Assembly (NCBI GenBank): GCA_902788785.1
Contig: CADALT010000023.1
Coordinates: 1-47,784 of the forward strand
Source: an uncultured Ruminococcus sp.
GTDB lineage: Bacteria > Bacillota > Clostridia > Oscillospirales > Ruminococcaceae
Reading direction: 5' to 3'
Length of the DNA stretch: 47,784 nucleotides
Shown: one piece after another, positions 13,201 to 32,441 of the stretch
Position numbering within the stretch: the first letter of the stretch is position 1
Layout of the letters: each line of letters begins with the position of its first letter
Made by a program: the position numbers and the translations under genes
The notes under the pieces: generated by a model
What the model saw: only the letters and a program-made list of their open reading frames with translations
Told to the model about the DNA's origin: nothing
The model's database searches: none

Positions 13201-13739
13201 ATGGCTTTCAGCGACAGCCTGTCCACGGTCATGTTTTCGGGGCGCTCGACCTCTGCGGTGAGCCTTACTGTGCCGTCGTTGTCGGTGCATACGTAAACTC
13301 CGTCGGGCAGTATATGCGCCGCATGGTATTCGCACAACCATACTTTTCTGTAGATGCCTGCGCCCGAATACCATCTGGAATTTGGCGCACGGTGGTCTGC
13401 ACGCACTGCGATAAGGTTCTCGCCCTCGTGGAGAAAGTCGGTTATATCCGCCTCGAAAGTGGTGTAGCCGTATTTCCATTCAAAAGCTAGCACACCGTTC
13501 ACATATATGCGTGGCTCCATATAAACGCCCTCGAACCTGAGCGAACGGTGCAGCCCGTCCGCAGGCACGATGAGTTTTCTGCGGTACCAGCCCGTGGAGT
13601 TCTCATACAGGTCATGGGCATTGTATATGAGCCAGTCGTGGGGCAGATCGGTCTCTTGCCAGTTTTTCACGTTTTCGTACTCTGTGCCGGTGGGAACTTT
13701 TGCAAATTCCCAGTGGTCACACAAAAGTGTTTGTTTCAC
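10275..13739 (-). CDS. Glycoside hydrolase family 2 beta-galactosidase/beta-glycosidase
   Basis: 1154 residues without a signal peptide, so probably cytoplasmic. Order: GH2 sugar-binding jelly roll (about 45-150), Ig-like domain (about 150-265), TIM barrel (about 265-570), a DUF4982-like Ig segment (about 585-650), further beta domains, and a C-terminal CBM6-like module (about 1070-1154). The acid/base Glu is in WSIGNEIAD (near residue 392) and the nucleophile Glu in FGSETSS (near 471). It cleaves beta-linked sugars (galactosides are the commonest substrate of this architecture) taken up from plant polysaccharide. GTG 13739 was chosen as start with AAGGAG 8 nt upstream; the GTG at 13748 overlaps that site. 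It is the first gene of a two-gene operon with the YitT protein. Confidence 0.93.
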   Translation of the reverse strand: MKQTLLCDHWEFAKVPTGTEYENVKNWQETDLPHDWLIYNAHDLYENSTGWYRRKLIVPADGLHRSLRFEGVYMEPRIYVNGVLAFEWKYGYTTFEADITDFLHEGENLIAVRADHRAPNSRWYSGAGIYRKVWLCEYHAAHILPDGVYVCTDNDGTVRLTAEVERPENMTVDRLSLKAIIADRSEHGAKQDMAESFYSCTAVDTCTLPAPVVREGCKYSVNTLTMQVKEPILWDISHPYLYTYSAALYLDGEMVDVVSGSFGIRKTEMTPDKGFFLNERHVKLHGACLHHDLGALGAAVNEKALRRQLEKLRTMGVNAIRTSHDPPSVELLELADEMGFLVLDEGFDMWELAKTEYDYSRFFDEWAERDVAAWVRRDRNHPCVIGWSIGNEIADTARSERGQEITSKLKMLVEQHDPEHNGLVTQASNYMMTNSAQKCADILKTAGYNYLERLYDEQHAAHPDWAIFGSETSSVVASRGIYHFPYSEPMLCEDDEQCSALGNIAPPWAARRLEDCIFADRDAEYCAGQFIWTGFDYIGEPSPYYTKNSYFGQFDTAGFEKDGAYIFKAAWTDYRTSPFIHLFPYWDFNDGELIDVRAATNAPRAALFFNGERIAVEEFDHAHGTKLTLDARLPYSRGVLEAVAYDENGTEIARDSVQSFGDAVKLQLSPDKTTLKANGRDMIFLEISALDVEDNFVANANNRVSVQVTGAGRLVGLDNGDSTDYDSYKGTSRRLFSGKLLAMIAAKSIGGDIDVKVTSRGLDDAEIKLCAVEISPEEFIATGFPFSEENKPAPPDCNVPPDEIPIRRMVLKGKRRKFTAEVRQLDFTIKLLPENTTYDEVEFRVVDQRGIAAENAHIIYADKDKVTVEALGDGVSVLRALAKNGTEKYHIMSSLTLTAEGIGKVYRDPYRMVKGGLFSLSGGRVLHGFRKGASIAGGAWCGFEDLDFGQNGTHTLTVSIFTESDEPIRFKVFDGTPDSGEMIGDLQFFEERVPMTPQRASYKLIRPLRGVHTISFLADEGMELEGFFFGQHPKEFAQIAAAAAQDISGKGLTVESEAVTGLKENACLDFGEFDFTSRSPERLMIRGRSKAEYNDIRLSFITEDGSEKRITLGFEGSQKYSEQSFRIHGIKGRGTVSFVFLKDCDMDMMSFRFE

Positions 13740-13774
13740 TCCGTTCACTCCTTTATATAATGATTATTATATAT

Positions 13775-13803
13775 AGTATACAATACAAATGGTTAAAATT
13801 CAA
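13775..13803 (-). promoter_or_regulatory. Promoter of the GH2 operon
   Basis: Minus strand: TTGAAT (13798-13803) and TATACT (13775-13780), 17-bp spacer, about 35 bp upstream of the start codon. Confidence 0.65.
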
Positions 13804-13881
13804 GCGATATTATTGAAAATAAAGTATTGTTTATCACAAAATAAGCAATGTATAATTGTGTACTTTGCCATCGAAAAATCG

Positions 13882-13910
13882 TTGACACGGTCAGACTGCT
13901 GTGGTAGAAT
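13882..13910 (+). promoter_or_regulatory. Promoter of the LRR-like/dockerin protein
   Basis: TTGACA (13882-13887) and TAGAAT (13905-13910), 17-bp spacer, 38 bp upstream of the start codon. It is divergent from the GH2 promoter. Confidence 0.85.
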
Positions 13911-13948
13911 GATATTAGCGTATTTTTATTTTTTAGGGAGGTATTACA

Positions 13949-14899
13949 ATGTATAAGAAGATAGTTGCAGTCGCACTGGCATTTGCGCTGGTTTTCGGCA
14001 TCGTCGGAACTTTCGGCGGTGTTGATAAGGGTGTGTTCGCTGTAAATGCTTCGGCGGATAGTTTAATACCGGAGATAAAAACATATGAAGATTTCATGCA
14101 GAATATCCATAGCTTCAGCCGAGAAGAACTTCTGGATTACTTTGAGAAACTCAACGATAAGATATATGTAAAAGAACAATCATATTCCGATGATAGTATA
14201 ACTGTTAGTTGGTTTTTATGCAAACCAACTAATGAGAAGTTCGATATTGATTGCTTTGTTAAACAACAGGATGGCATTTTGTATAGTGTAGATAATGGCG
14301 AAGTATCTATATGTGGTTACGCAGGAAATGATCCACTTGTAATTATTCCGAGTGAGATCGAGGGTTTTCCTGTAGCATCTATCAAAGTAATTCGGAGTTA
14401 CGGCTCTGTGGTTTATGATAAGGAAACCGGAAAGATCATTGGTGTTGCAGGAGATGCGAAAGGCGATTTTTCAGTATTCTATGCAAAAGAACTGACTATT
14501 GTGGTTCCTGACAGCGTCAGAGAATTCGGCTACAATTTTGAGATAGATGGAAAAACAGACTATTGGTGGCAAATAAGTCCGGTAGAAAAACTTAGATTTG
14601 AATATAACAAAGGCTCAGAGGCTCAGAAATTCTTTGAGGGAGACGGTGGTAAATCTGTCACGAAAGAAAATGGTGATAGTGTTACTTGGGGGATAAGAGA
14701 GAACATACCGGGCGATGCCAATGGTGACAATGAGATAAATGTATCGGATATTGCAGTATCGGCTGCTCATATAAAGGGTATCAAACCTCTGACTGATGAA
14801 CAGCAAAAAGCAGCCGATGTAAACAATGACGACAAAGTAAACGTCACCGATATCGCCATGATAGCTTCGCACATAAAGGGCATAAAAGCTTTGTCATAA
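13949..14899 (+). CDS. Secreted dockerin protein with a BspA-like leucine-rich segment
   Basis: 316 residues. Signal peptide (residues 1 to about 36, ending near NASA). The middle contains a segment typical of BspA/LRR_5 repeats: GYAGNDPLVIIPSEIEGFPV, then LTIVVPDSVREFG about 65 residues later. C-terminal type I-like dockerin (about 255-316) has two EF-hand-like calcium loops (DANGDNEINVSD and DVNNDDKVNVTD) each followed by a helix ending HIKGIK. The dockerin should attach the protein to a cohesin-bearing scaffold or surface protein outside the cell. No catalytic motif was found, so the role may be binding. A strong GGGAGG site precedes the ATG, with its own promoter upstream and terminator downstream. 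Confidence 0.88.
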   Translation: MYKKIVAVALAFALVFGIVGTFGGVDKGVFAVNASADSLIPEIKTYEDFMQNIHSFSREELLDYFEKLNDKIYVKEQSYSDDSITVSWFLCKPTNEKFDIDCFVKQQDGILYSVDNGEVSICGYAGNDPLVIIPSEIEGFPVASIKVIRSYGSVVYDKETGKIIGVAGDAKGDFSVFYAKELTIVVPDSVREFGYNFEIDGKTDYWWQISPVEKLRFEYNKGSEAQKFFEGDGGKSVTKENGDSVTWGIRENIPGDANGDNEINVSDIAVSAAHIKGIKPLTDEQQKAADVNNDDKVNVTDIAMIASHIKGIKALS

Positions 14900-14907
14900 G
14901 ATCTTTC

Positions 14908-14937
14908 GCAGGATACCCCGTGGTGTCCTGCTTTTTT
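14908..14937 (+). terminator. Terminator of the dockerin gene
   Basis: GCAGGATACC (14908-14917) pairs with GGTGTCCTGC (14922-14931), one G-T pair, followed by T6. Confidence 0.9.
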
Positions 14938-14941
14938 GTGC

Positions 14942-18920: not shown

Positions 18921-19002
18921 ACATGATGTGTGATCTTCGGGTCACTGTAGAAGAAAATTAAAGTGAAGAATAAAAGAACCGATAACATATAAACGGATGA
19001 CA

Positions 19003-19033
19003 GCCCGAGGGTGACCTCGGGCTTTTGTGTTTT
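19003..19033 (+). terminator. Terminator of the CPBP protease gene
   Basis: GCCCGAGG and CCTCGGGC form a perfect 8-bp stem with a GTGA loop, followed by a T-rich tract. Confidence 0.92.
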
Positions 19034-19060: not shown

Positions 19061-19089
19061 TTGACAATGAACTAAGGCTGTGTTATAAT
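19061..19089 (+). promoter_or_regulatory. Perfect consensus promoter of the eight-gene phosphosignalling operon
   Basis: TTGACA (19061-19066) and TATAAT (19084-19089), 17-bp spacer. No other terminator or strong promoter was seen until 28666, so it should drive all genes from 19211 to 28651. Confidence 0.85.
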
Positions 19090-19130
19090 TTTTAAATAGG
19101 TATAATATCTTTAAAATATTTATATCAAAT

Positions 19131-19167
19131 GCCGAAAAGGGGACAGGCGTATCTTGTCCGCAACGGC
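19131..19167 (+). other. Structured leader RNA before the GNAT gene
   Basis: Within the ~115-nt leader, GCCG (19131-19134) pairs with CGGC (19164-19167), and GGACA (19141-19145) with TGTCC (19155-19159). This gives a two-tier stem-loop. No poly-T follows, so it is not a terminator. I do not recognise a known riboswitch class. Confidence 0.4.
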
Positions 19168-19210
19168 TTGAAATAAAGTTTTGATGTATTTACAGCTGAT
19201 AGGTGATAAC

Positions 19211-19678
19211 ATGATAAAATATGAAAAAGCAGGCATGGCTGATATATCTGTGCTGACAGAACTAAGGCTTGCCTATCTTACAGAGGATCACGGCGGACTG
19301 ACGGAAGCTGAAACACAGAAGATAGCATCGCAGCTGCCGTTGTATTACAGCGAACATCTTGATAAAGACCTGTTCGTGTACGTGTGCAGGGCTGATGGTA
19401 AGATAGTGAGCTGTGTGTTTTTGTATGTTTCACATATGCCGCCCAACCCCGATTTTATAAACGGCAGGACGGGCACAGTGCTCAATGTATATACCCTGCC
19501 CGACCACAGGCGCAGGGGCATCGCAGGCAGACTTATGCAGGATATGCTTGATGATGCAAAGGCAATGGGGCTTGACTATGTGGAGCTCAAAGCCACTGAT
19601 ATGGGTCGGGGACTTTATAAGTCACTGGGCTTTAAAGATGTGGTCTCTAAATATCATAGTATGAAGTATGTTTTATAA
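19211..19678 (+). CDS. GNAT family N-acetyltransferase
   Basis: 155 residues covering a single GNAT fold. The acetyl-CoA pyrophosphate-binding motif is PDHRRRGIAGRLM (near residue 101), and the C-terminal YKSLGFKDV motif is typical. Substrate unknown. ATG 19211 was preferred to an upstream in-frame ATG because AGGTGAT lies just before it, although this site is weak. It is the promoter-proximal gene of the operon; only 23 bp separate it from the coiled-coil protein gene. It may acetylate a component of the system, such as the conserved N-terminus of the next protein, but that is speculation. Confidence 0.9.
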   Translation: MIKYEKAGMADISVLTELRLAYLTEDHGGLTEAETQKIASQLPLYYSEHLDKDLFVYVCRADGKIVSCVFLYVSHMPPNPDFINGRTGTVLNVYTLPDHRRRGIAGRLMQDMLDDAKAMGLDYVELKATDMGRGLYKSLGFKDVVSKYHSMKYVL

Positions 19679-19701
19679 GTTATAAGAAAGCAGGTCATGT
19701 A

Positions 19702-20973
19702 ATGAGCGGACCTAAGGTCGATACGGCAGAGCTGCGCCGTCAGGAGCTTATGAGGCTCGAAGCAGCAAGAGAAGTTCGCCAGAAGCTCTGCGAAGAGATA
19801 ATGGATACCATCAGGCGTATAGATAAGCAGTGTGCTGAGGTCTGCGGTCTGCTTGATGAGGACGGCGGCTATGCGGATAATTCAAGTGAGATAAAAAAGC
19901 ACAGAGAGGTCTGCAAGAAAAAGCTGGACAAGCTTTATGACCGTGTGCGTGCAGGCAATGAGATGTTCGATACAGATGAGGCACGGGCTGAGCTTAATGA
20001 GATAAAGCGTGAGTTTGATCTGCAGGACGATATAAAACGCAGCATGGAACTTATTGAGCACAGTGAAAGACTGCAAAGCATAAAACGTCAGAACGAAGCC
20101 ATGGCAGGCACAAGGCGCAGGATACTTCAGGATATAAAGGAAAATACCGTCGCTGTCGATGATATGTATGAATTTGATACAAGGGCTGATGCCTTCGAGC
20201 AGGAGCTCACCCAAATGATGAACGAGGGTGAGATGACGGGTATGCATAAAAATTCCATACTGCTGCTTTTGCAGGATCTTCACGAACTCAGGCGCAGCGG
20301 TATGCCTGCGGATACTTCCTGCAAAAGGCTGCAAAGGCTTTACGGGCAGTATGAGAAGGTAGGTGCGCTCATACACAGCGAGATGGACGTTATGAGGGCG
20401 GTATACAAGGAATACTGCACACAGTGCTTCGACCTGGAGGGTGGACCTGCGGCAATGTCGGATTTCTCCTCGGTGGCTGAACTTAAAGAGGCGGCAGAAA
20501 AAATGCGTGAGCGTGCAAAGTGCAGGCTTTCGAGCGAATATATCAAGCGCCAGATAGACGATGTTATGAAAAAGCACGGCTACGATGTGGTCAATTCCGA
20601 ACTTCTGCATGAAGCGGATGCTAAGGGTCAGGCGCTTTACGGGGTGGATAAGGACTCCGCCATAAATGTGTTTGTCTCCGATGAGGGACAGGTCACTATG
20701 CGAGTGGTGGGTATAGGCTTTGATGAGGACATCAGCGAGCAGGAGAGCGAAAGGCTCTATCAGCAGCAGTGCGCCTTTTGCAGCCTTCATCCGCAGCTCA
20801 CAAAGGAACTTGAGATGCGTGGGGTGATACTGCATACCAAAAAGCATAATCCCCCCGATAAGAAATTCAATAAAAAGATAAAGACCCGTGTGCGTACCGA
20901 GAACGCCGCTGCGGACCGCAGGAAGAAAGAGCTCAAACGGCAGGGTCTGCGTATGATGCATAAGGAGAGTTGA
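19702..20973 (+). CDS. Coiled-coil protein with MSGPKVD N-terminus, unknown function
   Basis: 423 residues, highly charged, no membrane segment. It starts MSGPKVDTAELRRQE; I recall MSGPK-type N-termini from other uncharacterised bacterial proteins, usually followed by helical heptads, but I know no function. Heptad-rich helices (Arg/Glu/Leu) cover most of residues 8-310. A more globular part (about 310-375) includes DSAINVFVSDEGQVTMRVVG, which looks like a small beta domain. The C-terminus (about 380-423) is strongly basic. The weak ribosome site AGCAGG precedes the ATG. It lies between GNAT and FHA genes in the operon and could be a structural adaptor or substrate of the AAA+ ATPase (inference). 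Confidence 0.85.
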   Translation: MSGPKVDTAELRRQELMRLEAAREVRQKLCEEIMDTIRRIDKQCAEVCGLLDEDGGYADNSSEIKKHREVCKKKLDKLYDRVRAGNEMFDTDEARAELNEIKREFDLQDDIKRSMELIEHSERLQSIKRQNEAMAGTRRRILQDIKENTVAVDDMYEFDTRADAFEQELTQMMNEGEMTGMHKNSILLLLQDLHELRRSGMPADTSCKRLQRLYGQYEKVGALIHSEMDVMRAVYKEYCTQCFDLEGGPAAMSDFSSVAELKEAAEKMRERAKCRLSSEYIKRQIDDVMKKHGYDVVNSELLHEADAKGQALYGVDKDSAINVFVSDEGQVTMRVVGIGFDEDISEQESERLYQQQCAFCSLHPQLTKELEMRGVILHTKKHNPPDKKFNKKIKTRVRTENAAADRRKKELKRQGLRMMHKES

Positions 20974-20978
20974 TAAGG

Positions 20979-21659
20979 ATGGCGACCATCATATGTCCGC
21001 AGTGCGGATTTGAAAATCCCGTGGGAAGCAGTATCTGCGAGATATGTGCAGAACCTTTGGCAAAAAGCACTGATGAAAGAGCGCAGGAGAATGTTCGGAT
21101 ATCGCAGCCTGCCGCACCGCTGCCTACAGTGGCACAGTCGGCGATAACGCCCGAGAGCACCAGAGAGTATTTCGTGTTCTGCCCCGAGTCACAGACCAAG
21201 ACCGTGCTGCCAAACGGCAGCGTCAGGAAGTTTTTCTGCGAGGGCTGCAAGATAGAGCATGAGATAGATGATTTTCTCTGGCAGATAGAGATGCGTGACA
21301 AAGAGACACCTCCTGAGCAGGCAGCTTTTGAGGAAGATACAGGCACAGTGGGCGACGAACTCTGGCTGGAGGAAGTAAATACCCATGCCAGGATAGATAT
21401 AGCAAAGCCCGGCGGAACTCTGGGAAGATACGGCAATTTCGGCTCGGACTTTTTCCTGTCAAGGAATATGCATACGGTGTCGGGCGAGCATTGCCGCATA
21501 ACCTATGAGTACGGCTCGTGGGTATTAAGACATATCAGCCATACCAACAATACGGTGTATAACGGTATGGAGCTTGAAAGGGAAGCGCCTAATCTTCTGG
21601 AAAACGGCAGACAGCTGACCTTGGCAGGCACAGTCACCTTTACGGTGCGCATAGGCTGA
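20979..21659 (+). CDS. Zinc-ribbon and FHA-domain protein
   Basis: 226 residues. An N-terminal zinc ribbon has Cys6-x2-Cys9 and Cys20-x2-Cys23. A second Cys set (Cys68, then Cys87-x2-Cys90) suggests another zinc-binding unit. The C-terminal FHA domain (about 140-226) shows its hallmark residues: GR at 149-150, SGEH at 168-171 and the NTVYNG turn at 190-195. FHA domains bind phosphothreonine peptides, so this is the likely reader of marks set by the kinase and erased by the PP2C protein encoded downstream. ATG 20979 was chosen (AAGGAG 11 nt upstream); the in-frame TTG at 20970 lies within the preceding gene's stop region. The stop overlaps the next start (TGATG). Confidence 0.92.
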   Translation: MATIICPQCGFENPVGSSICEICAEPLAKSTDERAQENVRISQPAAPLPTVAQSAITPESTREYFVFCPESQTKTVLPNGSVRKFFCEGCKIEHEIDDFLWQIEMRDKETPPEQAAFEEDTGTVGDELWLEEVNTHARIDIAKPGGTLGRYGNFGSDFFLSRNMHTVSGEHCRITYEYGSWVLRHISHTNNTVYNGMELEREAPNLLENGRQLTLAGTVTFTVRIG

Positions 21660-22231
21660 TGTATCTGGACAGGATGATATTCCCCATAGAAACGCTGGGA
21701 CCGGGACAGCGGCTGGTCATCTGGACGGCGGGCTGCACAAAGCACTGCAAGGGCTGTGCTAATCCCGAGCTTTGGGAGACCCGTGGCAGGCGGCAGCGCA
21801 GTACGGGGGAGATAGCAGGCATGATACGCCGCATAGCCGCAGAACATCATATCGACGGCATCACCATAAGCGGCGGCGACCCTCTGGAACAGGCGCATGA
21901 ACTGCTTGAACTGCTGGATGAGATAGCCGGTATTACCGAGGATATCCTCGTATATACCGGCTTTACATATGATGAGCTGGACTCGGTGCTGACAGTGGAA
22001 GAGCTTGCGCACCTGCGCAGCCGTGTCGGCGTGCTGATAGACGGCAGGTATGTGGAGGACCTCAATACGCCCGATACAGCGCTCAGGGGTTCATCGAACC
22101 AGGATATCATATTTTTCAAAGATGAACTGCGTGAGCGCTATGAACAGCATATGGCGCAGGGACGCAGGATACAGAACGTTTATATGGGCAGCCGACTTAT
22201 CTCGGTGGGCATACATGACAGAGAACAATAG
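21659..22231 (+). CDS. NrdG-like radical SAM protein (4Fe-4S single cluster domain)
   Basis: 190 residues. The radical SAM cluster motif is Cys26-x3-Cys30-x2-Cys33 (CTKHCKGC), followed by the SAM-binding SGGDPLEQA motif (near residue 78) and an NrdG-type C-terminal half with VLIDGRYVEDL. The family includes activators of anaerobic ribonucleotide reductase. Here no nrdD lies next to it; the gene is overlapped by the FHA gene stop and followed 10 bp later by the AAA+ gene. It may install a radical or modification on a component of this system rather than on NrdD, or serve NrdD encoded elsewhere. I am sure of the fold, not of the substrate. Confidence 0.92.
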   Translation: MYLDRMIFPIETLGPGQRLVIWTAGCTKHCKGCANPELWETRGRRQRSTGEIAGMIRRIAAEHHIDGITISGGDPLEQAHELLELLDEIAGITEDILVYTGFTYDELDSVLTVEELAHLRSRVGVLIDGRYVEDLNTPDTALRGSSNQDIIFFKDELRERYEQHMAQGRRIQNVYMGSRLISVGIHDREQ

Positions 22232-22241
22232 GAGAAAAACT

Positions 22242-24104
22242 ATGAAAAAGCACAGTGTACCAAAATGGCAGCAGGAGATATCCAGCTTCAAGGGCATAAA
22301 GAGCACATTTATAATAGAGGGCAACATCAACGATTTCTACCCGCTTTATGACGGCAAGGAACTGCCCGTGGCATTCGTTGACCTCAATATGACCTTGCTG
22401 CGCCTTTTTAATGAGCGCAGGGAGGATACGGATTTTGAGTTCATGTTCTGCGACCCCGCAACGGGTATATATAATAAATTCGGCGACAGGTACGGTAATA
22501 TCGAGGAGATGCTCAATAAGTATTCGGTATCGAACGATGAAGAACCTCTGCCCTTCGGTGTGGACAGGCTGTTCAAGAAATCCTGCAAGCTCGATGACAT
22601 CGAACAGCTTTCAAATGTCATCAGGAATGCTATGGTGGATACCGACAGGCAGAAGCCCGTGGCGGTGGTAATGAACTTCGTATCGAGATATATCTCGTCA
22701 CCCACTACCCTCGAACCTGCGGAGAACAAAATGTTCCTGAACCTGCTGTTCGCATCGCTGAATGCCGCAAGGATAAACGATGACTTCAATACACTGATAA
22801 TGATAGTGGAGAAGTTCAACGACCTGCCTGCATGGTTCTTCTACAATAACCCGAATGTAAGGACTATCTCCATACCTAATCCCGATAAGGATATAAGAAC
22901 GATATTTATAGATAAGGAGTATCTGGAATTTCGTGATGACCCGTCGCTTGTTAAGATCAAGGATAAGTTCATAGATGTTACGGAAGGGCTCAAGCACAGA
23001 GAGCTCAAGGAACTTAGGAACCTCTATCAGCGCCTGCTGGTGAGAAAGCCGGGTACAGAGCTGCTTGATGCGGTGTCCATATACAAGTACGGCATCATTG
23101 AGAATATGTGGCACTCCATAGATAGGGAGAAGATAGCAGACCTTGAAGAACTGCTCAAACAGCGTGTAATGGGACAGGATCAGGCAGTCAGCAAGACGGT
23201 GAATATCGTAAAGCGTGCAGTGTCGGGACTTTCGGGCTTGCAGCATTCATCGGGACAGAACAAGCCAAGAGGTGTGCTGTTCTTTGCAGGACCCACGGGC
23301 ACAGGTAAGACCGAGCTTACAAAGGCGCTCTCGGAACAGCTTTTCGGTGATGAGAACAACTGCATACGTTTCGATATGAGCGAATTTTCCGAGTCCCATG
23401 CGGCACAGAAGCTTTTCGGCGCACCTCCCGGATATGTGGGCTACGAGGCAGGCGGTCAGCTGACCAATGCCATCAAAGAGCGCCCATTCTCGATACTGCT
23501 TTTTGATGAGATAGAAAAAGCTCACCCATCTATCATGGATAAATTCCTGCAAATACTGGAAGACGGCAGAATGACAGATGGTCAGGGCAATACCGTGTAT
23601 TTCTCGGAAACTCTGATAATCTTCACCAGCAATCTGGGTATAACAAGGCAGTATACCGATGCATCGGGCAGAGAGTGCAGGGAACAGCTGGTATTCCCAA
23701 GCGAACCCTATGAGGAGATAAAGCCCAAGGTACTCAGCGCTATAAAGGATCATTTCAAGCCCGAGGTGCTCAACCGTATAGGCAATAATGTGATAGTATA
23801 CGATTTCATCAGACCCGAGGCGGCTAAGGCTATAGTGCGTGGTCAGCTGAAAAAGATAAATGCAAGGATACTCAAACAGAACAAGATAACCGTCAATGTC
23901 ACCGATGGACTGTTAGAGCATTTCTATGAGCTGGCAGGCAGAGATGAGGTGCTGGAAATGGGCGGCCGAGGTATCGGCAACCTGATGGAGGAGCAGTTCA
24001 TAAATCCTCTGGCGGAGTATATATTTGAAGCTTCCTGCGATGCAGGCGATACTGTCACAGCTGACTGCGAGGGCGGCAGCGTGGCTTTTCATAAGGGAGA
24101 ATGA
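22242..24104 (+). CDS. ClpB/ClpA-like AAA+ ATPase with degenerate first AAA domain
   Basis: 620 residues. The C-terminal half is a complete class 2 Clp/Hsp100 AAA module: Walker A GPTGTGKT (350-357), pore loop GYVGYE (397-402), Walker B ILLFDE (419-424), sensor 1 FTSN (near 461), Arg finger in VLNRIG (512), sensor 2 GGRGI (near 575). The N-terminal ~300 residues start with FIIEGNINDFY and end with a VRTISIPNPDKDIRTIF segment. Together these look like an AAA+ domain that has lost its P-loop (moderate confidence). There is no Clp N-domain and no IGF/IGL ClpP loop that I can identify. It probably threads or remodels a partner in this operon. AGGAGA precedes ATG 22242. Confidence 0.93.
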   Translation: MKKHSVPKWQQEISSFKGIKSTFIIEGNINDFYPLYDGKELPVAFVDLNMTLLRLFNERREDTDFEFMFCDPATGIYNKFGDRYGNIEEMLNKYSVSNDEEPLPFGVDRLFKKSCKLDDIEQLSNVIRNAMVDTDRQKPVAVVMNFVSRYISSPTTLEPAENKMFLNLLFASLNAARINDDFNTLIMIVEKFNDLPAWFFYNNPNVRTISIPNPDKDIRTIFIDKEYLEFRDDPSLVKIKDKFIDVTEGLKHRELKELRNLYQRLLVRKPGTELLDAVSIYKYGIIENMWHSIDREKIADLEELLKQRVMGQDQAVSKTVNIVKRAVSGLSGLQHSSGQNKPRGVLFFAGPTGTGKTELTKALSEQLFGDENNCIRFDMSEFSESHAAQKLFGAPPGYVGYEAGGQLTNAIKERPFSILLFDEIEKAHPSIMDKFLQILEDGRMTDGQGNTVYFSETLIIFTSNLGITRQYTDASGRECREQLVFPSEPYEEIKPKVLSAIKDHFKPEVLNRIGNNVIVYDFIRPEAAKAIVRGQLKKINARILKQNKITVNVTDGLLEHFYELAGRDEVLEMGGRGIGNLMEEQFINPLAEYIFEASCDAGDTVTADCEGGSVAFHKGE

Positions 24105-24107
24105 TAT

Positions 24108-24866
24108 ATGTTCAGATATGCAGGTCTTGTGGATATAGGCGTACATGAAGATCATAACGACGACCGTGCGCTGATAGACGGCAGAGTGCTGGCTGACGGA
24201 AAGGCAGAGGGCAGCACCGACAGCAGTGTGTTCCATGCGGCAGTGTGCGATGGTGTCGGCGGCGCAAAACAGGGCGCAAGGGCGGCACAGCTCACAGCGG
24301 AAAAGCTGGGCACGCTCGATGCTGAAAACGCAGGGATACCCGAGATAAAAAACCTTATAGAAAAAATAAACCTCGAACTTCTGGAAATACAGAACGCCGA
24401 GGGTACGGACGGCGAGCTTATAACCACCGTGGCAGGTATGGTCGCAAACGGCGATGGGCTGATAGTCTACAATGCAGGTGACAGCAGAGTGTACCGCCAG
24501 CGTGGACGGTTCATAAGGCTGCTTTCCAAAGACCATTCGTATGTACAGCTTATGGTGGATATGGGCAAGCTTGATGCCGGGGACGCAAAGTTTCATCCCA
24601 AGCGCAATATCATAAACAAATGTATCGGTTATGAGATAAAGGCAGCTCCGAGGGTGGTCGAGTTCGATGACCTGCTTGCGGGCGATGTCATAATGCTGTG
24701 CTCCGATGGTATCAGCGATGTGCTGGAAGATAAGGAGATAAGCGAGATGATCTCGCAGCATACCGACCTTGCAGAGTGCTGCGGCGCACTGCGTGATGCG
24801 GCGGTATCCAAAGGGAGCTTTGATAATATGACTGTACTGCTTGTACGAAAGGAAGGTGCAGAGTAA
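24108..24866 (+). CDS. PP2C-family serine/threonine phosphatase
   Basis: 252 residues, a full PP2C/PPM catalytic domain. Metal- and phosphate-binding motifs are in order: HNDDR (residues ~16-20), CDGVGG (~47), TTVAGM (~105), NAGDSRVYR (~121), CSDGISD (~203) and FDNMTVLLV (~240). It removes phosphate from Ser/Thr, here most likely on proteins marked by the kinase gene that starts the base after its stop codon. It lies 3 bp after the AAA+ gene. The fixed phosphatase-kinase adjacency matches the Stp/Stk pairs of Firmicutes and the PppA/PpkA pair of type VI secretion. Confidence 0.95.
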   Translation: MFRYAGLVDIGVHEDHNDDRALIDGRVLADGKAEGSTDSSVFHAAVCDGVGGAKQGARAAQLTAEKLGTLDAENAGIPEIKNLIEKINLELLEIQNAEGTDGELITTVAGMVANGDGLIVYNAGDSRVYRQRGRFIRLLSKDHSYVQLMVDMGKLDAGDAKFHPKRNIINKCIGYEIKAAPRVVEFDDLLAGDVIMLCSDGISDVLEDKEISEMISQHTDLAECCGALRDAAVSKGSFDNMTVLLVRKEGAE

Positions 24867-27275
24867 ATGGACAGCGAACGCATACCGACTATGCCCCAGG
24901 GAGCGGAGCGCATACCGACTATGCCCCAGGGCGCAGAGCGCATACCTACAATGCCCCAGGGAGCAGAGCGCATACCGACTATGCCCCAGGGAGCGGAGCG
25001 CATACCCACCATGCCCCAGGGAACGGAGCGCATACCCACTATGCCCCAGGGAGCAGAGCGCATACCCACAATGCCCCAGGGAGCAGAGCGTATACCGACC
25101 ATGCCCCAGAACGGGGGTCATATACCCACTGTGCCGCAGGGCACAGGCAGCGCATCAACAGTTCCACAGGGGACAAGCGCTGCATCTGCTGATAATACGA
25201 GAACTCCGCTGGTAGTGGGAAAGGTAAGCTTTACGGGAACTCACGGCGGCGAATTTGAGATAGACGGCAGCGACATGATAAGCAATGACAGCGGCGAATC
25301 ACAGATATACGGCTGTACGATGCAGGGCAGTGATGAAAAATACGTGGCAAGGATACTCACAGCAATCACTCCCCTTGACAGTGTAGAAGTCCGCAGAGTG
25401 CGTGATAAGGTGCTGGAATTTCTGGATAAAGTCAGCCGCAGCGAGAGCGCCCATATACTGCCCCTTATCGACCACGGTACGATAAAACTCGGCAATTGTG
25501 AGAAGTACGTGGAGATATATCCTTTCTGTGAGGGCGGCGACTTGGGCAGGCGCAGCGGCAGCATAGATTACGATACCCTGTGCAGAGATGTTATACCTGC
25601 GGTGAATACTGCACTGCATAAATTCCACGAAGCAGGCTTTGTCCACAGGGACATAAAGCCCGATAACCTCTATTATTATAAGGGCAGCGTGGTGCTGGGC
25701 GATTTCGGCATAACCTGCGACCTGCGTGAGGACGGCTTTGCTACTGACCGTTTCAAGCGTGGCACGCTGGGTTACTATGCCCCCGAACTGATGTCTCAGG
25801 CAGCCATAGCAGCATCGGATTACTATTCCTTCGGACAGACCGTGTGGACACTTTACAGCGGTGAGATGATGTACCGTGACCTGCTCAGGATATACAAAAG
25901 CTACGGTATAGAGGAACAGCGCAACCAGATAAATTTCGCCATGATGCAGAACAACTACTTCGGGCTGGACGAGATACCCGAAAAGCAGTCGTTCTTCGAG
26001 GTGCTGATACGTGGACTGCTGCAATACGACCCCACTCAGCGTTTCGGCTATGAACAGGTGGTTCGCTGGCTCAACGGCGATAAGGCGCTTGCCAACGAAG
26101 TCAGGGGACTTGATAACGGCAAGACCTATTCAAGGGCATTCACCCTTCTGGGAGGAGAGTGCTGGGACGACAATGAACTGGCGCAGACACTGGGCAATAA
26201 CTGGGAGGACGCTTTGCAGCTGCTATACGATGGAACGCTGCGTGACTTCATCGCCATGGAAAGCTTTGAGACTGCCACGTTCATCAAGAACATAGTCTCG
26301 CAGTATGCCTATACCCCCGATGAGGATAAGCAAAGCTACTGGCAGGACGCAGGGCTTGCAAGGCTTATAATGTATCTTGAAAAGAACAAGCGTATTTGCT
26401 GGCACGGCAAGACAATATCAAGGATAAATGATATGGCTTTTCTTGATATGTCTTCGCCTTACTTTAACGGCTTGATGCGTTCAAGGCTGATCTGCGAGTG
26501 GTATCAGTCCCAGAAACCCCACAGCGACAGCTTGCTGGACGCTCTGTATGAAATGACCGATATGTACTGCGGCGATGTCATAGAGAACACCATATCCCTT
26601 TACTGGCTCATGCATTTTGCTCAGCTGGGCGGAGATATCCTGTTCATGGGCTGCAAGGATCTAGATACCCTTATCCCTGTGATACTTGAATCACCCTCGC
26701 TGGTCTACGGAAAATCTCATGGTACGACCAAGCCCGATGTAAATATCCCTCCCACACCGCTGGTCGAGAGGATAGACCTTCTGGGCGTGCTTTGTATGTG
26801 GGGATATTCCGATGCGGTGAGAACGCTGCATGATAACTGGGATAAGCCCTATAACGAACGCTTTGAGATGTTCTTTGAATTTCTTGACAATAACACCTCG
26901 GGCGAAGCGCAGGCAAGGGTACGCCGTTTCTATCACGATTACGGACCAAGATCTTATCTGGTGTGGTTCTCGGATAATCTGGATATGTACACCATCACAG
27001 GCGCAAAGTGCAGCGCACTGGCGGAGGATATAAAAGCATCTCTGCCCGACTCCGTTTCATCGGTAAGTCAGCAGTTTGCCGATCTGAGCGAGCTGGAGCT
27101 GAAAGTGGCTGAACTTATGGGTTATAACGAGAGCGACATCTATATGGCACAGCTGGGGCTTTCCCATACAAGACGGGATGAGAGCATAAGCTCGAATGTG
27201 CTGGGCGCTATGTGGTATCTGGATTTTCTGGGTCAGCCTGCACCGCTGGGCTTTAAAAACTATCTTGGGATATAA
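24867..27275 (+). CDS. Serine/threonine protein kinase with N-terminal IPTMPQ repeats
   Basis: 802 residues. Residues 2-101 are ten tandem 10-residue units, eight of them nearly identical (GAERIPTMPQ). The kinase domain spans about 115-420: HRDIKPDN (260-267), DFG (279-281), APE (305-307). At the beta-3 position the usual Lys appears to be Arg162 (YVARIL), and the Gly-rich loop is poor, so ATP binding may be atypical. The remaining ~380 residues have no transmembrane segment and look helical; I recognise no family. The repeats supply up to nine threonines in the same context, plausible autophosphorylation sites for docking the FHA protein. GGAAGGTG precedes the ATG, which directly follows the PP2C stop. 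Confidence 0.93.
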   Translation: MDSERIPTMPQGAERIPTMPQGAERIPTMPQGAERIPTMPQGAERIPTMPQGTERIPTMPQGAERIPTMPQGAERIPTMPQNGGHIPTVPQGTGSASTVPQGTSAASADNTRTPLVVGKVSFTGTHGGEFEIDGSDMISNDSGESQIYGCTMQGSDEKYVARILTAITPLDSVEVRRVRDKVLEFLDKVSRSESAHILPLIDHGTIKLGNCEKYVEIYPFCEGGDLGRRSGSIDYDTLCRDVIPAVNTALHKFHEAGFVHRDIKPDNLYYYKGSVVLGDFGITCDLREDGFATDRFKRGTLGYYAPELMSQAAIAASDYYSFGQTVWTLYSGEMMYRDLLRIYKSYGIEEQRNQINFAMMQNNYFGLDEIPEKQSFFEVLIRGLLQYDPTQRFGYEQVVRWLNGDKALANEVRGLDNGKTYSRAFTLLGGECWDDNELAQTLGNNWEDALQLLYDGTLRDFIAMESFETATFIKNIVSQYAYTPDEDKQSYWQDAGLARLIMYLEKNKRICWHGKTISRINDMAFLDMSSPYFNGLMRSRLICEWYQSQKPHSDSLLDALYEMTDMYCGDVIENTISLYWLMHFAQLGGDILFMGCKDLDTLIPVILESPSLVYGKSHGTTKPDVNIPPTPLVERIDLLGVLCMWGYSDAVRTLHDNWDKPYNERFEMFFEFLDNNTSGEAQARVRRFYHDYGPRSYLVWFSDNLDMYTITGAKCSALAEDIKASLPDSVSSVSQQFADLSELELKVAELMGYNESDIYMAQLGLSHTRRDESISSNVLGAMWYLDFLGQPAPLGFKNYLGI
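24870..25169 (+). repeat. Tandem 30-bp repeats encoding the kinase IPTMPQ array
   Basis: Ten in-frame 30-bp units. Units 1-8 encode xxERIPTMPQ with mostly silent third-position changes; unit 9 encodes NGGHIPTVPQ and unit 10 GTGSASTVPQ. Protein identity is held while codons vary, which suggests selection on the peptide. Copy number could change by slippage or recombination. Confidence 0.95.
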
Positions 27276-27289
27276 GGAGGCGGCTGTCG

Positions 27290-28651
27290 ATGGATAATAT
27301 ACCAACTATCAGTACGCAGAAAGTTGCAGACCGTTATGAAACGCTGGGCAACAGGCTGAATGAGCTTTTTGTCAAGCTTTATGAAGAGCACTGCAAAATG
27401 CTGGAGGCAAACACGCTCTACCGCAAATGCCATTTAGGCGATCTTATTCTTTCGCTGGCGGCGATAGCAGTCTCATTGTACTTTCTGGTGTTCAATGATA
27501 ATATGAAGTATTATTATATGTCTGCCCACGGTGCAGAGGATTCGCTTTTCAAAGGCATACTTGTGATGATAATATTCATGAATGCCGTGAGTATAGTGCG
27601 CTATGTATACAGCAAAAAGCTGGATGCCACAGGCAGGCGGATAAACTCCTGCAGGCGCACCGCCGAGAAACGCATGGAAACCATGAAAAACAACGACTTC
27701 TACGGTCAGGTGTCCCGTGCGGCAGAGAGCGGCGACTCAAAATTCTCCGCCGATCAGAAAAACGATCTTGGCGATAAGATCTGTGCGCTGCGTGACAAAA
27801 TGCATAAAGCCAACAAGTCGGCAGGCGCAGTGGGGCGCATAATTTCTCCGCTGCTGGCTGCGGTGTACTTCCTGTTCGGCTTTGTGCTGGTGATAATGAA
27901 CCGTGATGAGATACCGCACGGCTCGTATATGACCTGGATGATGATATTCGGGGTGTATACATATTTTGCCATAGATGTGGTCATGTGTCTGATAGGCGGA
28001 CATCTGGGCAAGTTTATGAGAGGTTTCGGTGTAGTGCTGGCTGCTGTGACCTGCGGCTTTGAACTCTGGGCATTCTCGGAGGCTTCACTGGATAATAATG
28101 CCTTTGATATAGGCATACCTGTGCTTGGCAGCATTACCGAGCTCCAGCTGGTGGTCATACTGCAATTTTTAAGTATGCTAATAGGCGTGCTCAAAGCTGA
28201 CTATCTGGGTATGAAAACCAAATGGAACAAGGGCTTTGAACTGGTGATGAGCTACGGCGAGCCTAAGTCAAAGACCTGTGGTTCGCTAATGCGCAGGGGC
28301 GCATTTTCGGGACTGATCGCTGTTATCAGCTGGTATTCGGGCAATTCGCTGATGGACGGCAATATGATGCAGATTATCACTTTTCCTCTGCTGTTCTGGC
28401 TGTCCATGCCGCTGATGAAGCCTTTCGGCTCGACCATATATGCTTTCTTCGGAAGAGCAAAAAGCATAAGCATAACTTTGTACAGTCTGGCAATGTTCGT
28501 GCTGTTCCATGTATCAAAAAACGGAAACTTTGATATAAAGCAGCTCACATATCTGGGCATATGCGCAGCAGTGTACTTTATAATAGGCGGAATAGTCAAG
28601 CACCTTAATGACAATACCATGACCTTTGATTTTATGCACCGCCTTACCTGA
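27290..28651 (+). CDS. Multipass membrane protein with IPT-motif N-terminus
   Basis: 453 residues. The cytoplasmic N-terminus MDNIPTISTQ shares the IPT core with the kinase repeats. A short helical region leads to two membrane helices (about 48-70 and 85-105), a charged cytoplasmic loop of about 80 residues (to about 190), and then about eight more helices to the C-terminus. No transporter or enzyme signature is recognised. A strong AAGGAGG site precedes the ATG and the gap to the kinase is 14 bp. It could be the membrane anchor or effector of the phosphosignalling operon. No clear terminator follows before the next promoter. Confidence 0.88.
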   Translation: MDNIPTISTQKVADRYETLGNRLNELFVKLYEEHCKMLEANTLYRKCHLGDLILSLAAIAVSLYFLVFNDNMKYYYMSAHGAEDSLFKGILVMIIFMNAVSIVRYVYSKKLDATGRRINSCRRTAEKRMETMKNNDFYGQVSRAAESGDSKFSADQKNDLGDKICALRDKMHKANKSAGAVGRIISPLLAAVYFLFGFVLVIMNRDEIPHGSYMTWMMIFGVYTYFAIDVVMCLIGGHLGKFMRGFGVVLAAVTCGFELWAFSEASLDNNAFDIGIPVLGSITELQLVVILQFLSMLIGVLKADYLGMKTKWNKGFELVMSYGEPKSKTCGSLMRRGAFSGLIAVISWYSGNSLMDGNMMQIITFPLLFWLSMPLMKPFGSTIYAFFGRAKSISITLYSLAMFVLFHVSKNGNFDIKQLTYLGICAAVYFIIGGIVKHLNDNTMTFDFMHRLT

Positions 28652-28665
28652 TATAAAAACAGGCA

Positions 28666-28694
28666 TTGACACTATCTGCGGTATGTGATATAAT
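28666..28694 (+). promoter_or_regulatory. Promoter of the EEP-family gene
   Basis: TTGACA (28666-28671) and TATAAT (28689-28694), 17-bp spacer. A TAAGGCAATACCGTA sequence similar to the MITE end (13 of 15 bases) lies just after the -10 at 28701-28715. Confidence 0.88.
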
Positions 28695-28770: not shown

Positions 28771-29865
28771 ATGTCTGATAAAAGATCTAAAAAAAGGAAA
28801 AGACACCCTTTAAAGGCATTTTTCAAGTTCATACTGATACTGCTTCTGGTCGTTTTGGTCATAGTTGGCGCATATATAGCTTATGTGTTCATAGATTACC
28901 ACCGTGTACCCGATCATCAGCAGCTTGATGTTAAGGACGGTGCTTCTCTTGAAGCCAAAACAGGTGAGACTTATAAGATCATCTCGTTCAATACGGGCTT
29001 TGGTGCATATGAGCCTGATTACAGCTTCTTCATGGACGGCGGTACACAGAGCTGGGCATGGAGCAAGGAAAGGCTCACGGCGAATGTTGATAACATAAAA
29101 AGCTTTGTTGAGGCGCAGAATGCGGATATAGTAGTTATGCAGGAAGTTGATGAGGACGCTACACGTACCTATCATGTGAACGAGCGCAAGACATATGAAG
29201 ATGCTTTTTCCGACTTTGACACCTGTTTCGCACAGAACTGGGACAGCCCGTTCCTGTTCTATCCCGTACAGCAGCCCCACGGCAAGACTGTAACAGGCAT
29301 ACTCACTCTGTCAAGCTTTGATATGCAGAGTGCTGAGCGCCGCAGTGTACCTGTCGAGGATTCGGTCATGAAGATCGTTGACCTTGACCGCTGCTACAGC
29401 AAGTCCTATCTGACTGTTGAGGGCGGCAAGATTCTGGTGCTTTATAATCTGCACCTTTCGGCGTATACCTCCGATGGTACCATAGCAGATAAGCAGCTGG
29501 ATATGCTGCTTGATGATATGAACGAAGAGTATGAGAACGGCAGCTACATCATCGCAGGCGGCGACTTCAATAAGGATCTGCTGGGCGATTCATCAGAGTA
29601 TTTCGGCATAAGCGGCGAGCAGTATTCCTGGGCTAAGCCCATAAAGATGGAGTCCTTCGAGGGTAAGCCCTTCAAGCTGGTGGCAGCCTCGAACGTCCCC
29701 AGCAACCGTAATGCTGATGCTCCCTATAATCCCGATCAGTTCGTAAATGTGCTGGACGGTTTCGTAGTATCCGATAATGTGGAGGTAGTAAGCAACACTA
29801 ATATTGATATACAGTTTGCTTATTCCGACCATAATCCCGTAGAGATGGAGTTTAAACTGAACTGA
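28771..29865 (+). CDS. Membrane-anchored endonuclease/exonuclease/phosphatase family protein
   Basis: 364 residues. A very basic N-terminus (KRSKKRKRH), one membrane helix (about 16-40), then an extracytoplasmic EEP (DNase I-like) domain from about residue 65. Catalytic motifs in order: SFNTGFG (~72), MQEVDE with the metal-binding Glu (~128), NLHLSA (~230), GGDFNKD (~268), YSDHNPVEM (~353). Members hydrolyse phosphodiesters or phosphomonoesters; possible substrates outside the cell include nucleic acids, inositol phosphates or lipid head groups. ATG 28771 has GAAAGGTAG upstream. It is single, with its own promoter and a strong terminator. Confidence 0.9.
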   Translation: MSDKRSKKRKRHPLKAFFKFILILLLVVLVIVGAYIAYVFIDYHRVPDHQQLDVKDGASLEAKTGETYKIISFNTGFGAYEPDYSFFMDGGTQSWAWSKERLTANVDNIKSFVEAQNADIVVMQEVDEDATRTYHVNERKTYEDAFSDFDTCFAQNWDSPFLFYPVQQPHGKTVTGILTLSSFDMQSAERRSVPVEDSVMKIVDLDRCYSKSYLTVEGGKILVLYNLHLSAYTSDGTIADKQLDMLLDDMNEEYENGSYIIAGGDFNKDLLGDSSEYFGISGEQYSWAKPIKMESFEGKPFKLVAASNVPSNRNADAPYNPDQFVNVLDGFVVSDNVEVVSNTNIDIQFAYSDHNPVEMEFKLN

Positions 29866-30302: not shown

Positions 30303-32441
30303 ATGTACAAAAAAAGAGGTAACATCATGGGGCGCATATCTGCGCTGACGTTGGGTATCATGCTGGCTGCAAGTTGTTTGACAGGTTTTGCCGAGGCAGC
30401 AAGTGTGAGCGGTGATGTGAACTCGGACGGCAAAACGGATGTAACAGATATAGCTGTTACAGCAGCACATATCAAGGGCATCAAGGCGCTTGATAAGGAA
30501 GCAGCAGCCAGGGCGGACGTAAACGGTGACGGCAGCATAAACGTTGCGGATATCGCTAATCTGGCAGCACACATCAAGGGTATCAAGGCTCTGAGCGAAA
30601 ACCAAACAGAGCCCGTGCGTGAGCTGAAGCTTGGCGATAAAGTATCATTGATCGGGGGATCACATGGTAAGCTTGTCACAATGGCAGGCAAAGTCGAGGG
30701 CGGAATGACAGGAAAGTTCAGTGCGGAGTACAAGGTGACAGATGCACTGTCAGGTAAGACAGAGCTTGATTTCACCAGCGAGAACAGCTACAATTTCGCA
30801 GGTTTGAAGAAGGACGGCACACTGATGCTGACCAGGATGGCACCCGAGGGTGGCTGCGAGATATACAGCTATGTTCCCGGTAAGGATAAGCCATCGGTCA
30901 TCAAGCTTGATAATGATGTGTACAGAACCTACTTCGATGAGCAGACGGAGAGCCTGTATATCGAGGAAGAAACAAAGCTGAACAGGCTGACAGCCGACGG
31001 CAAGCTTGAAGAGATCGTAAGCTTTGGTGAAGATGAGATGTTGAACGGTGTAGATGCATCGGGCATGACAGCGGCGCTCCAAGGTGATGCTATCAGCAAG
31101 GATCTTTCAAAGGTCAGCGTGATATCGCTTGCAGACGGCAAGAGTCTGTGGGAAACAGTCAGCCACGATGGCGGCGGAATTGTTTTCACACAGCATAATG
31201 CTGTGGCATATGACAATATTATCAAGGACGATAAGCCGATCGGCGCACTGCGTTGTTTTGATGCAAAAACAGGCAAGAAGCTGGGCGTCTATCAGCCCGA
31301 GGGTGATGTAGCTAAAGTTTATTCCTCGAGCATGACCGATAACTGTATCTTACAAAATTCGGATTCGGGCGATTTTATGACCGTATTCAATTCGACAACG
31401 GGCGAGACAGCATCTGTTGATCTCGGCATTAAGGATATGCGTTTGAATGGGGCATACTGTATTGATGAGAACACCTGGGCAGTAGACGTATCGACAGGTC
31501 TCGGTATGGACTCTGTGTCCAAAACATTCATCATCAGGACAGATAAGCTTGAATTCAAAAAACTCCCTACGGGTCAGGATATTGAGACCTATGAAGAATT
31601 TCAGCTGAAGACCTGCGGCGAAGCGCTCAAAGCACAGCGTGAAAAAGCAGATGAGCTGGAGGATAAATACGGTGTCACCATACTCATCGGTGATGAGGTG
31701 CTGAATATTGAGTTACTTGGTTGTGGTTTCAGTTCTACCGAGCAGGATATGGATGAAGGATATCCCGAAGAACTCGACCAGACTCTGGATGAACTTGATG
31801 ATTGGATGTCAGCTTATCCCGAGGGATTTTTTGAGAAGTTCAAAACACCCGAAAATAAAAACGGTTACAGGATACTTGCTGTAAATGATTTTTATGATAA
31901 TGCTAGTAACCCTATAGAAATGGCTGGTGCAACTGATGAAACCAAAGACTATATAAATGTAGCATTTATACGTTATCAAACTGATTTTAAATCTGTAATG
32001 GATCATGAGACATGGCACGCTGTTGAGGATCTTGTTGACGAGGAGTATCCTTTTGATGAGGAAGCATGGGACAAGCTCAATCCCGATGATTTTAAATATA
32101 TGACAGGAAATTACTTTGCAGGCGATGCACCCGATAAGAAATATGATAAGTATCTTGCCGGTTTACCAGGCAGAAACGAGAATTATGAAAATGGTTATTT
32201 TATAGAAGATTACAGTATAACGAATTCCAAGGAGGACAGGGCTACTTTAATAGAATTTATGTATCCGTCTTCCACTCAGTCGATATATTATACAATGGAC
32301 GAAGAGATAGAGAAATATCCTCACCTTAAAGCAAAGCTCGATTATCTGGGCGAGTGGAGCAAGCAGTATTTCGGCTATGTTTATTGGGACGAGATGATAA
32401 AGAATAAATATGTTCCCGCTCCCGGAGAGGCTCTGGGATAA
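30303..32441 (+). CDS. Secreted dockerin-bearing HExxH metallopeptidase candidate
   Basis: 712 residues. Signal peptide (1 to about 33); LAASC could also act as a weak lipobox. An N-terminal dockerin (about 36-98) has two calcium loops (DVNSDGKTDVTD, DVNGDGSINVAD) and HIKGIK helices. The middle (about 105-440) is a beta-rich region suggestive of a propeller. The C-terminal domain contains HETWH (568-572), a zincin motif, followed about 75-80 residues later by an acidic stretch (EDRATLIE) that could give the third zinc ligand. It would be a cellulosome-associated or surface peptidase. An N-terminal dockerin is less common than a C-terminal one. An alternative start is the internal ATG 8 codons downstream, which has AGAGGT upstream. 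Confidence 0.85.
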   Translation: MYKKRGNIMGRISALTLGIMLAASCLTGFAEAASVSGDVNSDGKTDVTDIAVTAAHIKGIKALDKEAAARADVNGDGSINVADIANLAAHIKGIKALSENQTEPVRELKLGDKVSLIGGSHGKLVTMAGKVEGGMTGKFSAEYKVTDALSGKTELDFTSENSYNFAGLKKDGTLMLTRMAPEGGCEIYSYVPGKDKPSVIKLDNDVYRTYFDEQTESLYIEEETKLNRLTADGKLEEIVSFGEDEMLNGVDASGMTAALQGDAISKDLSKVSVISLADGKSLWETVSHDGGGIVFTQHNAVAYDNIIKDDKPIGALRCFDAKTGKKLGVYQPEGDVAKVYSSSMTDNCILQNSDSGDFMTVFNSTTGETASVDLGIKDMRLNGAYCIDENTWAVDVSTGLGMDSVSKTFIIRTDKLEFKKLPTGQDIETYEEFQLKTCGEALKAQREKADELEDKYGVTILIGDEVLNIELLGCGFSSTEQDMDEGYPEELDQTLDELDDWMSAYPEGFFEKFKTPENKNGYRILAVNDFYDNASNPIEMAGATDETKDYINVAFIRYQTDFKSVMDHETWHAVEDLVDEEYPFDEEAWDKLNPDDFKYMTGNYFAGDAPDKKYDKYLAGLPGRNENYENGYFIEDYSITNSKEDRATLIEFMYPSSTQSIYYTMDEEIEKYPHLKAKLDYLGEWSKQYFGYVYWDEMIKNKYVPAPGEALG

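Follow-up and report, generated by a model that had tools for sequence, protein, structure and literature searches.

What kind of system is encoded by the compact run of genes between positions 19061 and 28651 in contig CADALT010000023.1 of an uncultured Ruminococcus sp. (assembly GCA_902788785.1)? The whole stretch analysed, hereafter the window, comprises 47,784 nucleotides. In the part considered here eight open reading frames (ORFs), all on the + strand, follow one another with intergenic gaps of -1 to 23 bases. A preliminary description made from the sequence alone had read them as one eight-gene operon in which a Clp-type AAA+ protein is under phosphothreonine control. Comparison with related loci gives good support to a modified view: seven of the genes belong together as an accessory protein system that moves horizontally, and the window holds one copy of this widespread system, for which no name was found. 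The features are as follows.

19061..19089, + strand: promoter-like sequence TTGACA-17-TATAAT with TG ahead of the second hexamer (12/12 consensus match only)
19211..19678, + strand: gene for a GNAT acetyltransferase (Pfam/NCBIfam scan)
19702..20973, + strand: gene for the MSGPK scaffold, with long helices and a small C-terminal alpha/beta domain
20979..21659, + strand: gene for a protein with zinc ribbon (by eye) and FHA domain (Pfam)
21659..22231, + strand: gene for a radical SAM enzyme of the Fer4_12 family, in a clade apart from NrdG, CxxxCxxC kept
22242..24104, + strand: gene for an AAA+ protein, an N-module without Walker A followed by a ClpB-type D2
24108..24866, + strand: gene for a Stp1-like PP2C phosphatase (Pfam/NCBIfam)
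24867..27275, + strand: gene for a Ser/Thr kinase-like protein with N-terminal IPTMPQ repeats (Pfam Pkinase)
24879..25109, + strand: 30-bp tandem repeat in 7.7 copies, encoding the core of the kinase's IPTMPQ array
27290..28651, + strand: gene for a multipass membrane protein with six hydrophobic windows

The common strand and the tight spacing given in the preliminary description were confirmed from the ORF ends. The gaps amount to 23 bases between GNAT and scaffold genes, 5 between scaffold and FHA (with the FHA start at the ATG in 20979), -1 between FHA and radical SAM, 10 between radical SAM and AAA+ (AAA+ start at 22242), 3 between AAA+ and PP2C, 0 between PP2C and kinase and 14 between kinase and membrane gene.

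For the identification of related loci a genome collection of 84,980 species (according to its own description) was scanned with the AAA+ N-module of the window, which yielded 11 loci labelled Ruminococcus, Lachnospiraceae, Clostridium and others, in the following called the named loci. Some of these labels look doubtful, as near-identical loci carry different names; L039 and L040, filed as Muribaculaceae and Blautia, are almost identical in the AAA+ and radical SAM trees (branch lengths of about 0.01). The preliminary description had looked to co-occurrence in the same order in other Clostridia as a check, and indeed none of the 11 named loci departs, within the limits of its contig, from the order scaffold–FHA–radical SAM–AAA+–PP2C–kinase. 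Two contigs end early, that of L043 after the PP2C gene and that of L045 within the kinase gene; in all nine loci which extend further, a multipass membrane gene comes next after the kinase. A profile of the window protein recognised six of these membrane genes, and a second profile the other three; since the latter also detects the L042 protein (8e-10), it connects both groups of membrane proteins. The GNAT gene was the member that had to be removed from the proposed eight-gene unit: a search of the other loci's ORFs returned no match to it at E<=10, and the conserved unit therefore comprises seven genes at 19702-28651. In the window the GNAT gene is perhaps co-transcribed with this system, while standing outside it.

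A total of 38 loci was examined, composed of the window, the 11 named loci, eight loci of the same family, three of nine plasmids and 15 class or phylum matches (10 of the 12 phylum matches besides the window's genome are among the loci examined). A radical SAM enzyme of the same family is encoded on the same strand within the AAA+ cluster in every one of them; it adjoins the AAA+ gene directly in 33 loci and lies one gene off in two (L085, L086) and three genes off in three (L047, L048, L078). Profile searches detected the MSGPK scaffold in 30 loci, the FHA protein likewise in 30, the kinase in 29 (two of them fused to a helicase) and PP2C in 23, and a part of the missing genes is explained by contig ends (L043, L079, L082 and L086 among them). 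The FHA, radical SAM and AAA+ genes, for which unrelated contexts had been considered at the outset, thus recur together in more distant bacteria.

The reverse search led largely to the same genomes. A profile of the C-terminal domain of the scaffold matches 11 of the 398 phylum genomes, and 10 of these are among the 13 genomes with an AAA+ relative (Fisher p 1.3e-16); the eleventh match is weak (2.4e-6) and lies in a far longer frame. In the nine genomes measured, the window's excluded, the scaffold match is located 643-2144 bases from the AAA+ match. Without the six genomes of the seed alignment, both matches occur in four genomes, AAA+ only in three, the scaffold only in one and neither in 384 (p = 1.8e-7), where the four are dependent on the seeds, three belonging to the genus of seed G730 and the fourth to that of G885.

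The distribution is patchy. At the level of the family, at least 9 of 197 genomes have a full-length relative of the AAA+ protein; the figures are 6 of 391 for the class, 13 of 398 for the phylum and only 1 of 29 for the genus, the window's genome being counted in each. Nine plasmid records carry a relative (seven from Rhizobium, one from Caballeronia, one from Aristaeella). The system hence occurs in Bacillota and on Rhizobium and Caballeronia plasmids, and the earlier restriction to a Gram-positive anaerobe does not hold. The operon DNA itself matches no plasmid record. The closest copies, with AAA+ proteins 90-91% identical, have different neighbours on both sides. A phage origin was rejected, as no AAA+ relative was present in phage records and none was confirmed in a scan of viral contigs. 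Full-text searches of the open-licence literature, which includes PMC7159879, PMC10250203, PMC12278908 and PMC9391042, gave no name or description of the system, and subscription reviews could contain one; in the core proteins scanned, PADLOC 2.0 recognises nothing beyond the AAA+ and kinase domains.

Comparison of the gene orders allowed a classification into six classes. Class A, with the order given above, contains the window and the 11 named loci, and the same order is seen in L051, L077 and L080. Class B has the order DUF4011 helicase–kinase–scaffold–FHA–radical SAM–AAA+–PP2C, with a DUF4236 gene in L049 and L050 and without it in the plasmid locus L074; L083 has the class B gene set with no helicase within the stretch examined. 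Class C (L047, L048, L078) is arranged as AAA+–kinase–scaffold–FHA–radical SAM with an extra protein upstream, whose L048 copy, the sole one scanned, matches the PADLOC model for type IV methyl-directed restriction with 61 bits. The genes of this upstream family lie adjacent to QueH in L047 and L048, and in L078 a DUF4236-like part is fused. Class D (L052, L053, L081, L087) consists of a superfamily 1 (SF1) helicase, a PIN protein, a coiled coil, AAA+ and radical SAM, without kinase. Its coiled-coil proteins have one Cys kept in four of four; homology with MSGPK is not claimed, with a best hhalign E of 0.009 and controls at 0.13-0.54. In class E (L075, L076) AAA+ and radical SAM are followed by a kinase fused to a DUF4011-type helicase and by the MSGPK scaffold, and the L075 protein also bears an MTES_1575 nuclease domain. 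Class F (L085, L088-L091) collects mixed orders from other Bacillota, and L054, L079, L082, L084 and L086 are unclassed or were seen only partly.

In the AAA+ tree as well as the radical SAM tree each of the classes A to E, though not class F, forms one side of a branch, with the reservation that the cross-class trees are quick trees with a long-branch warning and that class C has a support of only 63 in the radical SAM tree. The operons therefore seem to descend as units, while their outputs are swapped. A helicase or helicase-nuclease belongs to the cluster in 9 of the 38 loci, five of the DUF4011 type and four as pairs of SF1 helicase and PIN protein. The two of the former that were scanned with PADLOC, both with nuclease domain, match its anti-phage candidates PDC-S37 and Hhe, which consist of a DUF4011 helicase and an MTES_1575 nuclease (L050 with 1213 and 568 bits, L075 with 462 and 217 bits, respectively). 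The likeness to these candidates extends to all five loci whose cluster encodes a helicase of the DUF4011 type, which in two cases is fused to a kinase domain; the difference is that no such helicase-nuclease was seen in the window or in any of the 11 named loci of class A. On another contig of the window's genome, unlinked to the operon, L093:11191-16995 encodes a DUF4011–helicase–MTES_1575–DUF3320 protein that scores 1229 bits against PDC-S37; phosphoketolase and GGDEF genes are close by. A partnership of this protein with the operon is a guess.

The radical SAM enzyme and the AAA+ protein are the two components encoded in all 38 loci. The former (Fer4_12, 110 bits) resembles NrdG and other glycyl-radical activases in family, in the CxxxCxxC motif and in size. 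It differs by its position in a separate clade, divided from 30 of 30 NrdG proteins, including the one encoded by the window's genome, by a single branch with a support of 100/99. The AAA+ protein (AAA_2, 179 bits, together with a ClpB D2-small match) ends in a ClpB-type D2 module with Walker A, Walker B and the pore loop GYVGY. One Walker A per protein, always in the C-terminal module, was observed in 37 of 38 AAA+ proteins, and the remaining one is cut by a contig end. The likeness to the ClpB disaggregase (294 bits) is accompanied by clear differences, as no second Walker A is present, no Clp N domain was matched and the score is far under the cut-off of 1232.

Neither the scaffold nor the membrane protein has a convincing match in Pfam or NCBIfam. 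Within the C-terminal domain of the scaffold Gly293 and Cys360 are invariant (31 of 31 sequences), and the proteins of L076 and L091, although outside the scaffold profile, keep the MSG start together with the Gly and the Cys. Cys360 is the best candidate for the target of the radical SAM enzyme. A fold search with the scaffold model gave nothing at E<=0.001; faint matches to RWD/UBC-like (FANCL) folds and helical bundles were not trusted.

The protein families named in the preliminary description were recovered by Pfam and NCBIfam for GNAT, FHA (31.9 bits, cut-off 20.7), radical SAM, AAA+, PP2C (48 bits) and kinase (78 bits), and the zinc ribbon was recognised by eye only, as CxxC...CxxC with Pfam zinc-ribbon matches under cut-off. 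The FHA domain has the GR and SxxH patterns, and 29 of 30 FHA proteins, the window's included, agree with a loose version of them. About ten IPTMPQ repeats stand at the N-terminus of the window's kinase, and all ten class A kinases whose N-terminal part is complete have repeats of this type; the array is the likely docking site of the FHA protein. HRD, DFG and APE are kept in the kinase, and its C-terminal half has no Pfam match. In L044 the kinase gene (12643-14940) is divided over two frames, and an additional pair of kinase genes, preceded by an FHA-profile gene, lies upstream of the operon at L038:1852-5609 and L045:1820-6221.

From these parts we infer an accessory, phospho-switched machine of unfoldase and radical SAM enzyme with exchangeable outputs, which would serve in conflict, most likely against phages or other elements, or in stress, and to which we assign a probability of about 0.55. 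Three parts would make up the core: the coiled-coil scaffold, a radical SAM enzyme dedicated to the system and an unfoldase of ClpB type in which just one ATPase module has kept Walker A. Around it the zinc-ribbon FHA protein, PP2C and the kinase-like protein would act as a phospho-switch, and an exchangeable output gene would be attached, a multipass membrane protein in the window's class and a helicase or helicase-nuclease in some of the others. When a threat or stress is sensed, Thr residues in the IPTMPQ repeats would be phosphorylated, and the FHA protein would dock on them and bring scaffold and unfoldase along. By pulling on the scaffold the unfoldase may then free or switch the output at the membrane; PP2C would reset the switch, and maturation of the scaffold, at the invariant Cys, would be the task of the radical SAM enzyme. 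What the comparison of loci establishes is the gene set and its order, the common ancestry of the main parts, the kept active-site motifs and the scattered occurrence; all functional steps, and the direction in which the switch works, are proposals. Conflict appears the likelier purpose because of the patchy presence, the carriage on plasmids and the helicase outputs, which in themselves suggest a conflict role and by which the earlier reading has to be changed.

Several observations weigh against this reading. Phosphothreonine control, as proposed earlier, is plausible in view of the FHA motifs, the repeats and PP2C, and it meets a difficulty in the kinase: the ATP-binding beta-3 Lys is replaced by Arg in 10 of 10 class A copies, so that phosphorylation may come from another kinase. 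Of 30 kinases tested for Thr enrichment in the tail, only six reach p<0.01 (three proteins in which HRD was not recognised were dropped from this test). PP2C was not found in 15 of the 38 loci, the kinase in nine and the FHA protein in eight, with short contigs among them. From these gaps, and from the lack of separate FHA and PP2C proteins in classes D and E, it follows that the core does not require the phospho-switch. The N-module of the AAA+ protein is perhaps a degenerate D1, a weak assignment: its model has a pLDDT of 61, PDB profile matches lie at E 0.27-0.85, and comparison with Clp D1 gave E 0.3 (5 rows) and 0.7-0.8 (21 Clp D1 sequences), against 1.5e-7 for the positive control of Clp D1 with D2. 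The matches of the N-module to Clp D2 were at E 0.0025-0.014 in the 5-row run and at 0.004 and 0.11 in the 21-row run. Further, neither helicase nor nuclease is encoded in class A (window and 11 named loci). PADLOC gave no convincing match for ten genes that flank the operon in six loci of this class, the window included, the sole match (L042, 61 bits) falling on a glycoside hydrolase; seven of the ten have a Pfam family, mostly of transport or of sugar and nucleotide metabolism.

The last two of these observations speak for the strongest rival, although we regard it as rather unlikely: the same machine as a housekeeping or stress system of protein quality control that takes no part in conflict. 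A phospho-controlled, ClpB-like motor would here repair or dismantle membrane or coiled-coil assemblies that have been damaged. It would also agree with the SbcD and SbcC genes (named by eye) that follow the operon, in its orientation, in three of the 11 named loci (L036, L037, L039). A housekeeping function is, however, difficult to reconcile with a presence in one of 29 genomes of the genus, with relatives on plasmids and beside helicase-nucleases and with the exchange of neighbours between the closest copies.

Threonine phosphorylation in type VI secretion is controlled by the set PpkA, PppA, Fha and ClpV, and the preliminary description had pointed to this analogy. The analogy stands for the control parts only: kinase, PP2C, FHA and a Clp-type ATPase occur in both; moreover, the TagH model picks up the FHA protein (4.5e-07; 30 bits where the cut-off is 120), and the ClpV1 match of the AAA+ protein spans its D2. 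That the operon is the control set of a secretion or contractile device of this kind with structural genes elsewhere is nevertheless highly improbable. The AAA+ protein, with its one Walker A, scores 242 bits against ClpV/TssH (cut-off 885) and higher against ClpB, neither value being near its cut-off. No sheath, tube, baseplate or membrane-complex protein was found among the ten window proteins by Pfam and NCBIfam, a scan that covered neither the rest of the genome nor, systematically, the neighbours in other loci. A type VI relative was rejected on these two grounds. The operon additionally has the scaffold, the membrane output and the radical SAM enzyme, the last of which has no known counterpart in type VI secretion.

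The reading of the radical SAM enzyme as a second NrdG for anaerobic ribonucleotide reductase amid signalling genes gathered by chance draws on 116.1-116.2 bits to TIGR02491 and is refuted for practical purposes by the cut-off of 126.1, the true NrdG elsewhere in the genome (174 bits), the separate clade and the clustering with AAA+ in 38 of 38 loci.

TerY-P systems combine vWA, PP2C and kinase. Together with the vWA-MoxR ternary conflict systems (eLife 2020 e52696) they share with the operon the joining of phospho-signalling, AAA+ and exchangeable effectors. They differ in that, as stated in the preliminary description, no vWA or TerD protein is present among the ten window proteins scanned, and the bpMoxR match of the window's AAA+ protein, under cut-off, reflects the generic AAA+ fold. 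MSGPK is absent from the text of that paper, and the sole mention of radical SAM there concerns an FtsH-type vWA system.

With regard to transcription signals, a consensus scan found no terminator-like site on the + strand inside the operon, in line with the earlier account, and a terminator-like hairpin at 19002-19023 lies upstream of the promoter-like site at 19061. The scan returned 15 promoter-like sites where 14.1 were expected, so only a perfect score is notable. The single consensus promoter described before is one of two such sites: a second 12/12 match, at 28666-28694, follows right behind the last operon gene. After it the window encodes a protein of the endonuclease/exonuclease/phosphatase family (Pfam, 28786-29865) and a secreted-looking protein with two dockerin-like repeats recognised by eye (30303-32441).

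Returning to the phospho-switched machine, a more far-reaching version is tentative and on balance doubtful. The radical SAM enzyme may have left ribonucleotide reductase activation and may modify the invariant Cys of the scaffold, the radical perhaps being placed on the invariant Gly. An oxygen-sensitive, radical-modified structural protein would then be remodelled by a ClpB-like motor under phosphothreonine control, in a new kind of bacterial machine whose output, be it a membrane protein, a helicase or a helicase-nuclease, can be exchanged.

The finding thus concerns a system of six to seven genes, distributed over Bacillota and the plasmids of two proteobacterial genera, for which neither the libraries nor the open literature that were searched have a name. 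It combines a radical SAM enzyme of its own with an unusual Clp-type motor and a repeat array that seems suited to phospho-docking. Its parts hint at what some DUF4011 helicase-nucleases respond to. If it is a conflict system, radical chemistry and control by an unfoldase would join bacterial immunity; if not, it would be a new regulated unfoldase.

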